DNA from: Myxococcales bacterium
Lineage (GTDB): Bacteria > Myxococcota_A > Polyangia > Polyangiales > Houyiibacteriaceae
Assembly (NCBI GenBank): GCA_029861865.1
Contig: JAOTYL010000004.1
Location: 124,001-188,000, forward strand
DNA length: 64,000 nt
Direction: 5' to 3'
Part shown: piece by piece, positions 51,872 to 56,051 of the stretch
Layout: each line of letters starts with the position of its first letter
How positions within the stretch are numbered: position 1 is the first letter of the stretch
Position numbers and translations under genes: made by a program
The notes under the pieces: model-generated
Seen by the model: only the letters and a program-made list of their open reading frames with translations
What the model was told of the DNA's origin: nothing
Databases searched by the model: none

Positions 51872-52441
51872 GTGGTCCAAGGTTCGAGCCTACCGCCGCT
51901 GAAGACCAACAAGGGTAAGTACGGGATCCTGCTGCTGATTTGTCTGCTAGCGATCGGCGGGTTTTGGCTGTGCACCCAGAGGACTAAGGCACCCGAGTCC
52001 AAAGCTGAGCTCCCGGCACCCGTTCCCCCAACTCGGGAGCAGTTCACCACCGAGATCGAGATTCCGGAAGAAGATGCGGGGGAGCCGGACGAGGGCGAAG
52101 TCGACGTGGCCAAGCGCGAGCGATCTCGAGAGCTCGTCGAGTGTAGCGGCGTTCTCGACGCTGCACAGATCCGCGTCGTCATCAATGGTCCGCCTCGGAA
52201 ACAGGTTCAGACTTGCTACGAGCGCCGTCTCAAGGACAACAACCTGCTTCAGGGTCAGATGACGGTGCTATTGACGATTGCACCATCCGGTTCTGTGAGA
52301 AAAGTTTCGGTGTCGGGGTCTTTGCGCGATGCCCAGGTCAGTACGTGCGTGAAACGGGTGGCGCGAACCTGGAAATTTCCGAAGCCCGAAGGAGGATGTG
52401 TTCGCACTTCGGTCCCCTTCACGATGACGCCTAAGCTGTAG
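51872..52441 (+). CDS. TonB/AgmX-PglI C-terminal domain protein
   Basis: The 189-residue protein has an N-terminal membrane helix (KYGILLLICLLAIGGFWLC), a Pro/Glu-rich linker (about 45-80) and a C-terminal domain (about 95-185) with the pattern CYERRLKDNNLLQGQMTVLL, then IAPSGSVRKVSVSGS, a Cys pair and RTWKFPKP, as in AgmX/PglI C-terminal domains and relatives of TonB. Such proteins sit in the inner membrane with the linker and domain in the periplasm. In Myxococcus they belong to gliding-machinery complexes. Start GTG 51872. The fold call is good; a gliding role is an inference. It overlaps fbp by 11 bp. Confidence 0.72.
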   Translation: MVQGSSLPPLKTNKGKYGILLLICLLAIGGFWLCTQRTKAPESKAELPAPVPPTREQFTTEIEIPEEDAGEPDEGEVDVAKRERSRELVECSGVLDAAQIRVVINGPPRKQVQTCYERRLKDNNLLQGQMTVLLTIAPSGSVRKVSVSGSLRDAQVSTCVKRVARTWKFPKPEGGCVRTSVPFTMTPKL

Positions 52442-53486
52442 GCGGCCCATGGTCTTGGCCCCGGACGAAGCGAAGCACATCTGCGACGTCCGATGGGCTT
52501 CCCATGAACACCGGGGTGCGTTGGTGAAGCTTCTTTGGCTGGATGTCTAGAATGCGGTCCTCGCCATCCGACGCGGCTCCGCCTGCTGCTTCCACCAAGA
52601 ACGCCATCGGATTGGCCTCATAGAGAAGGCGAAGCTTTCCTTTGCGGTTTTTCACATCCTCCGGGTAAGCGAAGATCCCTCCTCGCAACAGGGTCCGGTG
52701 CAGATCGGCGACCATCGCCCCGATGTATCGTAACCGGTAGGCCTGCCTGTTCTTGCTTGGCGTCTTGATCCAGTCGACCCAGTTCTGAATGCGGTCGTCC
52801 CAGTTGTGGTAGTTGCCCTCGTTGATCGAATAGATTCCGCCGCGCTTGGGAATGCGAATATTGGGGTGCGACAGGAAAAACTCGCCGACACCTGGGTCAT
52901 AGGTGAAGCCGTCAACGCCCACGCCAGTCGAGTAGACCAGCATGTTCGAGGAGCCATAGACGATGTAGCCCGCAGCGATGATGTCACGCCCAGGTTGCAG
53001 GAGATCCTCGAGCGTGCCTGGCGTGCCATCGGGGCTGATGCGTCGATGAATCGAAAAGATCGTCCCGATCGAGGCATTGATGTCGATGTTCCCAGAGCCG
53101 TCGAGCGGGTCGAACTGCAGAACGTACTTCCCCTGCGGGTACTGGATCGGGACGGGGATCGGCTGCGCGATCTCCTCGCTTCCCATCACGCAGACATGGC
53201 CACCGGCCTCGACCGTGTTGACGATCGTGTTGTTGGCGAACATGTCGAGCTTCTGGACCGCCTCGCCCTGGACATTGGTCTTGCCAGTCAAGCCGAGGAT
53301 TCCCGAAAGCCCGGCCTTGCTCACCCTGCTGGCGATGATTTTCGACGCGAGCGTGATCTGCTGGAAGAGCCCGGTGAAATCGCCTGTAGCCTCGGGCATC
53401 CGACGCTGGCGGTCGAGAAGATGTCGCTCTAAGGTGGTGCCGATGGGGCTGACTTCCGCGGGGCCGATCGAACCTACCTTGCTCAT
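52431..53486 (-). CDS. fbp: Fructose-1,6-bisphosphatase, class I
   Basis: The 351-residue protein has the class I motifs: Glu in GSEEIAQPI (about 100), DPLDGSGNIDINASIGTIFSI (metal ligands and substrate site), and the C-terminal catalytic region RYIGAMVADLHRTLLRGGIF, which continues into YP and ends with LYEANPMAFLVEAAGGAAS. It hydrolyses fructose-1,6-bisphosphate in gluconeogenesis. There is no extra regulatory domain. Start ATG 53486; a TATGCC box ends 8 nt before it. It overlaps the convergent AgmX-like gene by 11 bp. Confidence 0.96.
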   Translation of the reverse strand: MSKVGSIGPAEVSPIGTTLERHLLDRQRRMPEATGDFTGLFQQITLASKIIASRVSKAGLSGILGLTGKTNVQGEAVQKLDMFANNTIVNTVEAGGHVCVMGSEEIAQPIPVPIQYPQGKYVLQFDPLDGSGNIDINASIGTIFSIHRRISPDGTPGTLEDLLQPGRDIIAAGYIVYGSSNMLVYSTGVGVDGFTYDPGVGEFFLSHPNIRIPKRGGIYSINEGNYHNWDDRIQNWVDWIKTPSKNRQAYRLRYIGAMVADLHRTLLRGGIFAYPEDVKNRKGKLRLLYEANPMAFLVEAAGGAASDGEDRILDIQPKKLHQRTPVFMGSPSDVADVLRFVRGQDHGPPTA

Positions 53487-53610: not shown

Positions 53611-54408
53611 GTGACGAACTTTCGTAACTGGTTGAAAGGCATCCACGCACGACGCTCGGGAATCCCGCGAGTGAGAGGCGTCAAGGGGCTGCCCAACGTG
53701 CTGACACGCGGCGAGCTGAGCGTGGTCTACCAGCCGATCGTCTCTCTCACCACCATGGAGCCTTTCGCCTATGAAGCCCTCGTTCGGAGCGATTCACCGC
53801 ACTGGATCAACCCCCCCAAGCTCTTCGACGAGGCGATCAGTAGCCGTTGCGTCGGCGCACTCGGGCGCGCGATCCGCGAGATCGCCACGGCGAACTGCGG
53901 CAACGCGCCGCTGTTTCTCAACGTGCATCCGAACGAGTTCGACGAGTCATGGCTGGTCCAGCCCGATGACCCGATCTTCACGCATGATCAACCGATTTAT
54001 CTCGAGGTCACTGAGTCGGTTCCACTGACTCACTTCGCATACTGTCACAGCGTCCTTCGCGAGATCCGAGGCAAGGGCGTTTCGCTGGCGGTCGACGACC
54101 TCGGCGCTGGCTATTCCAACCTCAAGTACATCGCCGACCTCAAGCCCGAGATTGTGAAGCTCGATCGAACGCTGATTGCAGACCTCGCGGATGACCGTCG
54201 CGCTCAGGTGCTCGTGCGGCACATCGTTCGGCTTTGTCACGAGCTCGGTGCACGCGTCGTTGCCGAAGGCATCGAGCAAGAGACGGAGATGAAAGTGGTG
54301 GTCGACTGTGGTGCCAACTTTGGCCAAGGCTACTATTTCGCGCGACCTGCCTATCCCGCCCCCGGCGTCAGCGCGACGCCGCGCGCCGTGATGAGCAAGG
54401 GGGCTTAG
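53611..54408 (+). CDS. EAL-domain c-di-GMP phosphodiesterase
   Basis: The 265-residue protein is nearly all EAL domain, from ELSVVYQPIVSL to FARPAYP. Catalytic and metal residues are present: Glu in YEALVR, Asn in LNVHPNEF, Glu in LEVTES, Asp-Asp in VDDLGAGYSNL, Lys in KLDR, Glu in AEGIEQ and Gln in GQGYYFARP. It should hydrolyse cyclic di-GMP in the cytoplasm. There is no sensor domain beyond about 25 N-terminal residues. The start is GTG 53611. Its stop shares TTAG with the convergent FHA gene. A GGDEF protein is at 25.1 kb. Confidence 0.93.
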   Translation: MTNFRNWLKGIHARRSGIPRVRGVKGLPNVLTRGELSVVYQPIVSLTTMEPFAYEALVRSDSPHWINPPKLFDEAISSRCVGALGRAIREIATANCGNAPLFLNVHPNEFDESWLVQPDDPIFTHDQPIYLEVTESVPLTHFAYCHSVLREIRGKGVSLAVDDLGAGYSNLKYIADLKPEIVKLDRTLIADLADDRRAQVLVRHIVRLCHELGARVVAEGIEQETEMKVVVDCGANFGQGYYFARPAYPAPGVSATPRAVMSKGA

Positions 54409-56051
54409 AAGGGCACCGATTGATAGCTCACGTCGCCGCCCTCGTGGCCTTCGACTTCGTGAATCGCCGTCACTCGGCTGCCATCGGACCCACGCTCGAC
54501 TGCGACGACCGCATGAACGGTGCTTCCGACCAGCTCCGCGATGCAAGGTCGATTCGCGCCACCACAGCTGGCCGCCAACACCAAGCCTTCGATTGCGTCT
54601 TTGGTACTCGAGCAGTGGACGCCGAGGAGATGCCCGGGGTCGCGTCCGCTCACGGCGGAAAGTGCGGCTATCGAATCGGCCCCGGTGAGGTCGTTCATGA
54701 TGACGTGGTCGGCGCGTAGGCGCGCGCCCTGCGTGATCGTCTCTACCATCGACATACCGGCCTCCGCTGCGGTAAGCGCGATCACTTTCTTGCGATCGAC
54801 ATCGAGGTCGGGAATCGCTTCGATGACGACGGTGTTCTCCTCCTCGGGAAGTTGTTGCGCCATGGCGGATAGCAAGGTGGTGACTCCGGACCCCTGAGGG
54901 CCGACTACGACGATATTGCGGCATTCGGCGATGGCCTTTGTCAGGTATGCTGCTGCGTCCGTGCTCATCCACCCTTCTTCGGCGAGCTTGTCGAGCGACA
55001 CGGCGCGGCCGACTCGGATCTCGATCACGGGGCCATTGGCTACCAGCGGGGCTTGCAGGATCGTCACCCGCGGGCCAAACGACAAGCGACCGTGAAAGAC
55101 CGGCTGGTCTTCGAGCGCGCGACCGGTCTGGGCAGCGAGCCGGCGGGCTACGACTTGCAGTGCACGAGATGACGAGAACAACAACGCCGTCGATCGAATG
55201 CCTGCGCCGGTATCGATGAGCACACGGTTCGGTCCGTTCACGACGACCATTTGAACCGCCTCGTTCGATAGCACGTCATCGAGGGCGCCGAGGCCTACCG
55301 CTTCATGCAGCGCAATATGCGCGACCTCGCGCATGTCGACTTCCGCGTTGACGGATCCATCGGTCTGCATCGAAAGAAACGTTTCTGCGATTGCCGCGCG
55401 CGCCGCGGACCAACGCTCTTGGTCCTTCATCAGTGCGGGGTCCGCGCCTTCGACGTCGATTCGCTCTCCTAGCCGGGACATCAGCTCGGCAGCAGGTTCG
55501 CCCGTCGGCTCACTCTTTTTCGAAAGCACGGCCTCGTCGGTTTGTCTGCGTTCGATGCGCGGGGGCAAGCTGGTTTTCAAGATGTCGTTTGGTTGGCCAC
55601 TCCTAGCTCTCGAGGCTCTGGATGCTCTCAACGGCATCGAAGTTCTGACCGGTATCGAAGACTTGATCGGGATTGACGCGTTGAGTGGCATCGACGATTC
55701 AGCCGGCAGGGGAGGCGGTTCCGACAAACTGCTTTGTGCCGAGCTCCCGGGTTGATCATCTTCGTCCGGTTCGAGCGTGATGATGAAGTTGGCGATGTAG
55801 ATCTTGTCGCCCGATTTCAAAGGATGGGGTGAGGTGATCTTGCGACCGTTGACCCATGTTCCGTTCGTGCTGTTTAGGTCGACTACGACCGCTTTTTCAC
55901 CTGCAAGAGACAAGCGTGCATGCTGCTTGGACACATTGCGTTTGGCCAAGACGATGTCGTTTCCTTGAACGCGCCCGACGGTCACTTCCGGCTTCGAAAA
56001 ATCGAGCCGTCGCCGTACGCCCCCCTCATCGGTGATCACCACCGCGTACAT
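54405..56051 (-). CDS. FHA domain fused to a degenerate CpaF/VirB11-type ATPase
   Basis: The roughly 548-residue protein begins with an FHA domain (about 1-90) with the phosphothreonine-binding motif GRVQGNDIVL, then SKQHARL and STNGTWVNG. A Ser/Pro/Leu-rich linker (about 105-165) follows, then a region of the secretion-ATPase superfamily: the N-terminal domain of CpaF (VNGPNRVLID, about 265-275) and the RecA-like core. In the core, Walker A reads GPQGSGVTT, with Val in place of the essential Lys; the Asp-box reads IEAIPDLDV and Walker B NDLTG, while the His-box is kept as GHLLGVHCSS. It should bind but not turn over ATP, or neither. ATG 56051 is used; TTG 56066 is in frame. It shares TTAG with the EAL gene end. 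Confidence 0.83.
   Translation of the reverse strand: MYAVVITDEGGVRRRLDFSKPEVTVGRVQGNDIVLAKRNVSKQHARLSLAGEKAVVVDLNSTNGTWVNGRKITSPHPLKSGDKIYIANFIITLEPDEDDQPGSSAQSSLSEPPPLPAESSMPLNASIPIKSSIPVRTSMPLRASRASRARSGQPNDILKTSLPPRIERRQTDEAVLSKKSEPTGEPAAELMSRLGERIDVEGADPALMKDQERWSAARAAIAETFLSMQTDGSVNAEVDMREVAHIALHEAVGLGALDDVLSNEAVQMVVVNGPNRVLIDTGAGIRSTALLFSSSRALQVVARRLAAQTGRALEDQPVFHGRLSFGPRVTILQAPLVANGPVIEIRVGRAVSLDKLAEEGWMSTDAAAYLTKAIAECRNIVVVGPQGSGVTTLLSAMAQQLPEEENTVVIEAIPDLDVDRKKVIALTAAEAGMSMVETITQGARLRADHVIMNDLTGADSIAALSAVSGRDPGHLLGVHCSSTKDAIEGLVLAASCGGANRPCIAELVGSTVHAVVAVERGSDGSRVTAIHEVEGHEGGDVSYQSVPF

Follow-up and report, generated by a model that had tools for sequence, protein, structure and literature searches.

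A window of 64,000 nucleotides from the contig JAOTYL010000004.1 of a Myxococcales bacterium carries a reverse-strand gene whose 548-residue product joins an FHA domain to a body resembling CpaF, the motor of the Tad pilus. This protein, here FHA-pseudoCpaF, has lost catalytic and platform-contact sequence features of CpaF; it is conserved, it is under purifying selection and it is present in genomes in which no canonical CpaF was found. We consider it moderately probable that FHA-pseudoCpaF is a conserved pseudo-motor—an ATP-independent scaffold that derives from a pilus motor and reads phosphothreonine. In the following, genomes carry G numbers (the host is G000), loci and aligned rows L numbers, and families f numbers.

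Domain layout and catalytic residues

In Pfam, PF00498 (FHA) matches residues 23-86 with an E value of 1.7e-19 and PF00437, the secretion-ATPase domain, residues 260-490 with an E value of 4.9e-9, and the best solved-structure matches by sequence are CpaF chains (E 1.5e-31). A structure model of the protein, based on 16 sequences, had a mean predicted local distance difference test score (pLDDT) of 77 and a predicted template modelling score of 0.55. Its residues 180-548 match CpaF, with a Z-score of 28.7 and a root-mean-square deviation of 6.4 over 359 residues for 9e24, and a Z-score of 28.6 and a deviation of 4.2 for 8rjf, and its residues 1-97 match FHA domains, with Z-scores of 16.8 for EmbR and about 16 for chains of GarA and OdhI. 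The score against the NCBIfam model TIGR03819 is 152 bits, under a cut-off of 373 that the canonical Tad FHA-CpaF of the genus (335) does not reach either. Within the FHA domain, G26, R27, S41, H44, S61, T62, N63, G64 and T65 are invariant in all 31 family rows, covering the GR, SxxH and NG/STNGT residues that we take to be the FHA core motif. Upstream of the conserved ATG start, at 56051, lies an in-frame TTG (56066).

The catalytic residues were judged against those of Caulobacter CpaF. The published account gives K287 and T288 in Walker A, E312 in the Asp box, E357 in Walker B, three arginine fingers (R217, R223, R347) and, at T325-T337, a pore loop with a tip that touches platform proteins in a predicted complex; it reports no ATPase activity for K287A (PMC12019362). 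These positions were mapped on 81 of 87 non-redundant CpaF-like rows, with L062-L065, L122 and L134 ungrouped and outside the counts. An order-wide group of 40 rows, the V-clade, comprises 18 sequences of the host genus (the window protein and 17 relatives) and 22 from other genera. In the window protein, Walker A reads G384-P-Q-G-S-G-V390-T-T, with V390 at the position of K287 and its codon, GTC (54884-54882), shared with the sister genome G018; D454 (in NDLTG) stands for E357 and D415 for E312, and T391, R444 (the R347 position), H479 and the G-x-x-G-x-G loop are retained.

The same pattern extends across the clade. Val occupies the Lys position in 35 of the 40 V-clade rows, all 18 genus sequences among them, the remainder being three gaps and two Leu with no Lys anywhere; no row has the Walker B Glu, which is replaced by Asp in 26, and all 40 show a gap at the pore-loop position E331. 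Canonical rows, by comparison, have both the Lys and the Walker B Glu in 35/35. An Arg stands at the R347 position in 18/18 genus rows and in 12/22 of the others. A sequencing error or a lone mutation as the source of the Val is excluded, since the residue is clade-wide. The loss of catalytic residues is well supported and, as far as residues can tell, ATPase activity has probably been lost with them. The original prediction, made from the DNA letters, had described a complete FHA motif, a Walker A with Val for Lys, deviating Asp box and Walker B, and a kept fold and His box; all of this holds, as does the clade-wide distribution of the Val that it had left to be checked, and the shortened pore loop adds a lost feature to those it listed.

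Retention, selection and stages of decay

FHA-pseudoCpaF is carried by 17 of 18 genus relatives, split over two contigs in G009; the one relative in which it was not found has a genome 66% complete. No internal stop occurs in the orthologues listed by the order-wide search. Ratios of nonsynonymous to synonymous substitution rates (dN/dS), computed by the Nei-Gojobori method with our own script, lie between 0.06 and 0.14 for the whole gene over all 11 pairs, every value far below 1, and the gene is under purifying selection. For the two closest genomes, G000 and G018, which both lack canonical CpaF, the ratio is 0.116 overall. By part, the linker has 0.172, the FHA domain 0.139, the NTD 0.118 and the ATPase domain (CAD) 0.065, the CAD being the most constrained region of the pair. 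Five other genus members gave whole-gene values of 0.063-0.143 in ten pairs; those of the CpaF-less G005 with four CpaF-bearing relatives fall at 0.075-0.099. That the gene is a decaying remnant without function would agree with its degenerate catalytic motifs and with further P-loop loss in other lineages, but this idea is contradicted by the selection, by orthologues free of stops and by the near-complete retention in the genus; we regard it as extremely improbable.

In another alternative, the Lys-less site would still bind nucleotide and the resulting change of shape would couple to FHA signalling, in loose analogy to FlaH, an ATP-binding partner in archaea. The low CAD ratio between G000 and G018 would suit such a sensor, as would the retention of Arg444, Thr391, His479 and the G-x-x-G-x-G loop in the window protein. 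The 22 non-genus V-clade rows, however, look unlike a conserved nucleotide pocket: nine of them have Gly at the P-loop position Gly284, 12 have the finger Arg and 11 the His, and the Val, at 17, is conserved better than the pocket around it. On balance, a nucleotide sensor seems unlikely.

To place the V-clade among its relatives, we used the order-wide search and a phylum search over 377 genomes, the latter with five candidates scored per genome; the 87 rows are a selection among the matches listed and not a census. From a named scan with the narrow alignment A2, 15 of 80 rows were used, their titles giving Myxococcota, Myxococcales, Polyangiaceae, Sandaracinaceae, Deltaproteobacteria or less; many of the other 65 come from other phyla. 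A tree of 72 rows, built after removal of 15 close copies and with the catalytic columns excluded, separates the FHA family (37 rows) from 35 canonical rows on a single branch with a support of 98/94 and 99% of 200 bootstraps. Five of the 37 family rows (L031-L034 and L106) show no FHA domain, most likely owing to a contig end. Label changes on the tree number four for the Val, two for the Lys and three for the Walker B Glu; long branches (L055 with L029) leave some inner placements unsure, and the root was not inferred, so that any order of decay steps is our interpretation.

Within the family, the state of the ATPase site differs from row to row. L122 and L134 keep the Lys, the Thr or Ser next to it, and the Glu. 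The six f15 rows (L100, L101, L103, L106, L109 and L114) all keep the Lys and have all lost the His, with the Thr after the Lys replaced by Ala, Asn or Gly in four and the Walker B Glu by Asp in four—residues by which these class-level relatives appear as an intermediate in the decay of FHA-CpaF. Moreover, L062 and L063 carry Arg at the Lys position, and L064-L067 have no recognisable P-loop. A gene from a cluster of double-FHA TPR proteins adjoins the L122 and L134 genes, and one is also found close to two canonical FHA-CpaFs that are accompanied by a secretin gene, in keeping with descent from a Tad-like cluster; the identity of this gene rests on Pfam for L146 and L149 and on clustering for the other two.

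Tad genes and the genomic neighbourhood

Seven T2SSE-family matches were found in the host genome, which measures 4.2 Mb and is 100% complete, the window gene being one of them. Among the other six, NCBI models place one above the PilB cut-off and three above that of the PilT family; two further stretches score highest with GspE models but stay below the cut-offs (GspE/PilB-like). T2SSF occurs in only two host proteins, whose genes adjoin the GspE-like gene and a PilT-family gene, and searches of the host genome with T2SSE, T2SSF and a canonical CpaF query revealed neither another CpaF nor a TadB/C. Within the genus, 16 of 19 genomes contain a canonical FHA-CpaF, whole or partial. It was not found in G000, G018 and G005, each rated 100% complete, which suggests repeated loss of Tad pili within the genus. 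Across the 57 genomes searched, the host included, canonical CpaF was missing at a threshold of E 1e-30 in nine (G000, G005, G018, G020, G021, G026, G029, G033 and G042), with 39 of 42 candidates scored in G020, 39 of 48 in G021 and all in the other seven. Eight of these nine, among them the host, retain an FHA pseudo-CpaF: the Val is present in seven and the P-loop has decayed in the eighth (G042), and no such protein was seen in G029. Finally, when nine proteins from the Tad cluster of G013 and the secretin of L149 were compared with the open reading frames picked near family genes outside Tad-type loci, the one match was a secretin in L063. Independence from Tad is well supported.

These findings bear on the role first proposed for the protein, that of regulating or poisoning a genuine CpaF/Tad or VirB11-type hexamer, which it would join or dock on so that binding of a phosphopartner by the FHA domain switches pilus assembly. 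Its kinship with CpaF, the canonical FHA-CpaFs of the genus and the Arg finger retained there would accord with this role. The idea is nonetheless weakened because eight of nine genomes without canonical CpaF keep the pseudo form, at a low dN/dS in CpaF-less lineages (with a caveat for the CAD of G005, see below); moreover, the platform-contact pore loop is cut, and the sole Tad-type neighbour outside Tad-type loci is the L063 secretin, which stands with pilM and pilO. As a general role, CpaF regulation is contradicted in the host, where the intact paralogue envisaged by the original prediction failed to appear, and we hold it to be very improbable. The adjacent Ser/Thr kinase envisaged alongside it was likewise missing from the window: a Pkinase search of the host genome returned 44 matches, 43 of them over the cut-off, and all lie elsewhere. 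Kinase control of the window protein is nevertheless possible.

Table 1. Features of FHA-pseudoCpaF and of its neighbours in the window.
Feature	Position	Strand	Basis or remark
FHA-pseudoCpaF gene, 548 aa	54405..56051	(-)	ATG at 56051 kept in 17 genus rows
FHA domain, residues 1-97	55761..56051	(-)	Pfam, family rows, structure matches
Pro/Ser-rich linker, residues 98-182	55506..55760	(-)	predicted disordered, pLDDT under 50
Linker segment TSLPPRIERRQT with T160 and T171	55539..55574	(-)	alignment of genus rows
CpaF-like body (three-helix bundle, NTD, RecA-like CAD)	54408..55505	(-)	sequence and structure matches
Walker A, degenerate: GPQGSGVTT with Val390 in place of the Lys (codon 54882-54884)	54876..54902	(-)	
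Degenerate Asp box EAIPDLDV	54798..54821	(-)	mapped alignment
Site of shortened pore loop	54747..54773	(-)	six residues fewer than a CpaF chain (pairwise alignment)
Arg-finger segment RLRADH and degenerate Walker B MNDLTG	54681..54722	(-)	R444 kept, Glu replaced by D454
His box	54606..54635	(-)	H479 kept; mapped alignment
EAL-domain gene	53611..54408	(+)	convergent, 4 bp overlap with the end of FHA-pseudoCpaF; Pfam
Response regulator with LuxR-type helix-turn-helix	56179..56931	(+)	divergent; Pfam
Fructose-1,6-bisphosphatase (FBPase)	52431..53486	(-)	Pfam; conserved neighbour in other families of the order

Neighbouring genes (Table 1) were chosen by a simple open-reading-frame rule that missed some, such as the family gene in L048 and L072, and Pfam was run on a part of them. 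The gene order in the genus is response regulator, FHA-pseudoCpaF, EAL gene and FBPase, with FBPase in 12/12 loci, the response regulator in 12/12 and the EAL gene in 11/12. In other genera, FBPase lies downstream in 7 of 24 loci (22 plus L048 and L072), belonging to families f1, f2, f8 and f9. Several FBPase genes stand directly downstream of FHA pseudo-CpaF on the same strand, and in G040 (L060:8341-9400, forward strand) FBPase is spread over two adjacent open reading frames, by a frameshift, a stop or an assembly error. The EAL gene is also linked in L049 and L051. In the window, its protein has, by eye, the motifs EAL, DDLGAGYS and QGYYFARP, all of which we take to be typical of EAL proteins, and may possibly be an active phosphodiesterase of cyclic di-GMP.

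FHA proteins such as GarA and OdhI control metabolic enzymes, and by analogy FHA-pseudoCpaF might control the FBPase or the EAL protein encoded beside it. The constancy of FBPase in the genus and its recurrence in other genera would agree with this proposal, but the link is absent in 17 of 24 loci (two of which, L068 and L073, stop at the gene or close to it), an opposite-strand EAL gene separates FHA-pseudoCpaF from FBPase in the genus, and neighbourhood alone is weak evidence; control of these enzymes appears distinctly improbable.

Outside the genus, a family of small membrane proteins of about 170 residues, c16 (e.g., L054:7868-8392, reverse strand), adjoins FHA pseudo-CpaF in loci from several genera of f1, f5 and f8. 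It occurs in 27 of 57 genomes; its transmembrane nature was judged by eye, the single member tested had no Pfam match, and no conserved phosphothreonine motif was seen by eye in its tail. No c16 turned up in the window's genus (19 genomes), an absence that rules it out as a universal partner. In one locus of G050 (L063:1613-9927, reverse strand), an Arg-bearing family member and c16 follow the genes for TruB, RbfA and IF-2 and immediately precede pilM, pilO and a secretin gene on the same strand. Neither the PilM nor the PilO protein of L063 had a match in the other loci fetched, and a general linkage to type IVa pili was rejected on the strength of this being a single locus.

A related proposal is that the protein acts on other machines—the type IVa pilus ATPases PilB and PilT, or type II secretion—as a regulator that enters a mixed ring or docks. 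The host genome encodes PilB, PilT-family, GspE-like and PilM proteins, and the L063 arrangement points the same way. However, this linkage was seen once, the host PilM matches sit on other contigs, and the window protein is far from the PilB, PilT and GspE ATPases, with 36 bits for PF00437; we rate action on these machines as quite improbable.

From pilus motor to putative scaffold

The most probable reading remains a pseudo-motor turned scaffold. In this proposal, a class III CpaF ancestor, composed of FHA domain, disordered linker, three-helix bundle (3HB), NTD and CAD, would have been released from the Tad pilus, after which its ATPase site decayed. In the present clade, the Lys would have given way to Val, the Walker B Glu been lost and the platform-contacting loop been cut, leaving the FHA domain and the CpaF fold. 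The body would be kept for its shape, as an ATP-free oligomeric scaffold. Given that CpaF forms hexamers, a ring would display several FHA domains, each on its flexible linker, which would bind threonine-phosphorylated clients, or threonines of the protein's own linker, when a Ser/Thr kinase is active. Two linker threonines, T160 and T171, are invariant in 17/17 genus rows, in a comparison within the genus, and the linker elsewhere is variable; both may be candidate phosphorylation sites. Their phosphorylated forms could be bound by the protein's own FHA domain, by analogy with Bdellovibrio DgcB, whose FHA domain binds its own phosphorylated N-terminal peptide according to PDB titles (compare PMC6733907).

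Several points weigh against this reading. Oligomerisation, phosphopeptide binding and the client are features that we infer. R444, T391 and an acidic Walker B residue remain in the window protein, so that weak nucleotide binding is possible, and, since the Lys is kept outside the V-clade (in the f15 rows, L122 and L134), the family as a whole is not dead. In addition, the CAD ratio is 0.061-0.120 in the four G005 pairs versus 0.046-0.091 in the six CpaF-bearing pairs, and it exceeds the whole-gene value in three of the four G005 pairs, so that constraint on the CAD may be slightly relaxed in G005. In G034 (L231:3855-5411, forward strand), an FHA domain and a long Pro/Ala-rich linker end in a stop, the CpaF body seemingly lost, so there the body seems dispensable. 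Finally, the L063 row hints at a possible tie to type IVa pili.

A wider proposal, which we put forward tentatively and consider plausible rather than probable, is that a pilus motor became, in Myxococcota, a general device of phospho-signalling, in which an ATP-free ring of dead CpaF, with no tie to Tad left, presents a multivalent FHA reader on long linkers. The partly decayed relatives—with the Lys kept but the Thr or Glu lost, with Arg for Lys, or with the P-loop decayed in full—would then record the dismantling, and the small membrane protein would perhaps have been an early partner. Pseudo-enzymes that keep a motor body minus its chemistry reveal other uses of that body, and the present family spans, in nature, the grades between a motor and a putative scaffold; it also gives phosphothreonine signalling a definite target to be studied in a genome with 44 Pkinase matches. 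The architecture is already known; the conserved, Tad-free branch of non-ATPases appears new, with no published account of it found in the open-licence literature.

Among known systems, FlaH/ArlH of the archaellum, which belongs to a family other than CpaF, is an accessory partner in a pilus-type motor. FlaH binds ATP, unlike the window protein with its missing Lys, and no CpaF partner for the latter was found in the host. FlaH is reported to stimulate the ATPase of FlaI, with an optimum at 1:1 (PMC6011876). CpaF/TadA, the Tad motor, shares with the window protein its fold, the Arg at the R347 position, the best solved-structure match by sequence and the domain order, given as FHA-IDR-3HB-NTD-CAD for class III CpaF (IDR, intrinsically disordered region; PMC12019362). 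It differs by its Walker A Lys, its Walker B Glu and its full-length pore loop, and the window gene lies outside a Tad cluster and is kept where canonical CpaF was not found. KilF of Myxococcus xanthus likewise fuses FHA to a CpaF body in a myxobacterium, and is described as the ATPase needed in the prey-killing, Tad-like Kil system (PMC8460266). The window protein, by contrast, has no motor residues and is encoded outside a Kil-type cluster. Finally, regulators of the GarA/OdhI/FhaB type are small FHA proteins; FHA-pseudoCpaF resembles them in its FHA fold and departs from them in the pseudo-motor body, some 360 residues long, to which that fold is joined.

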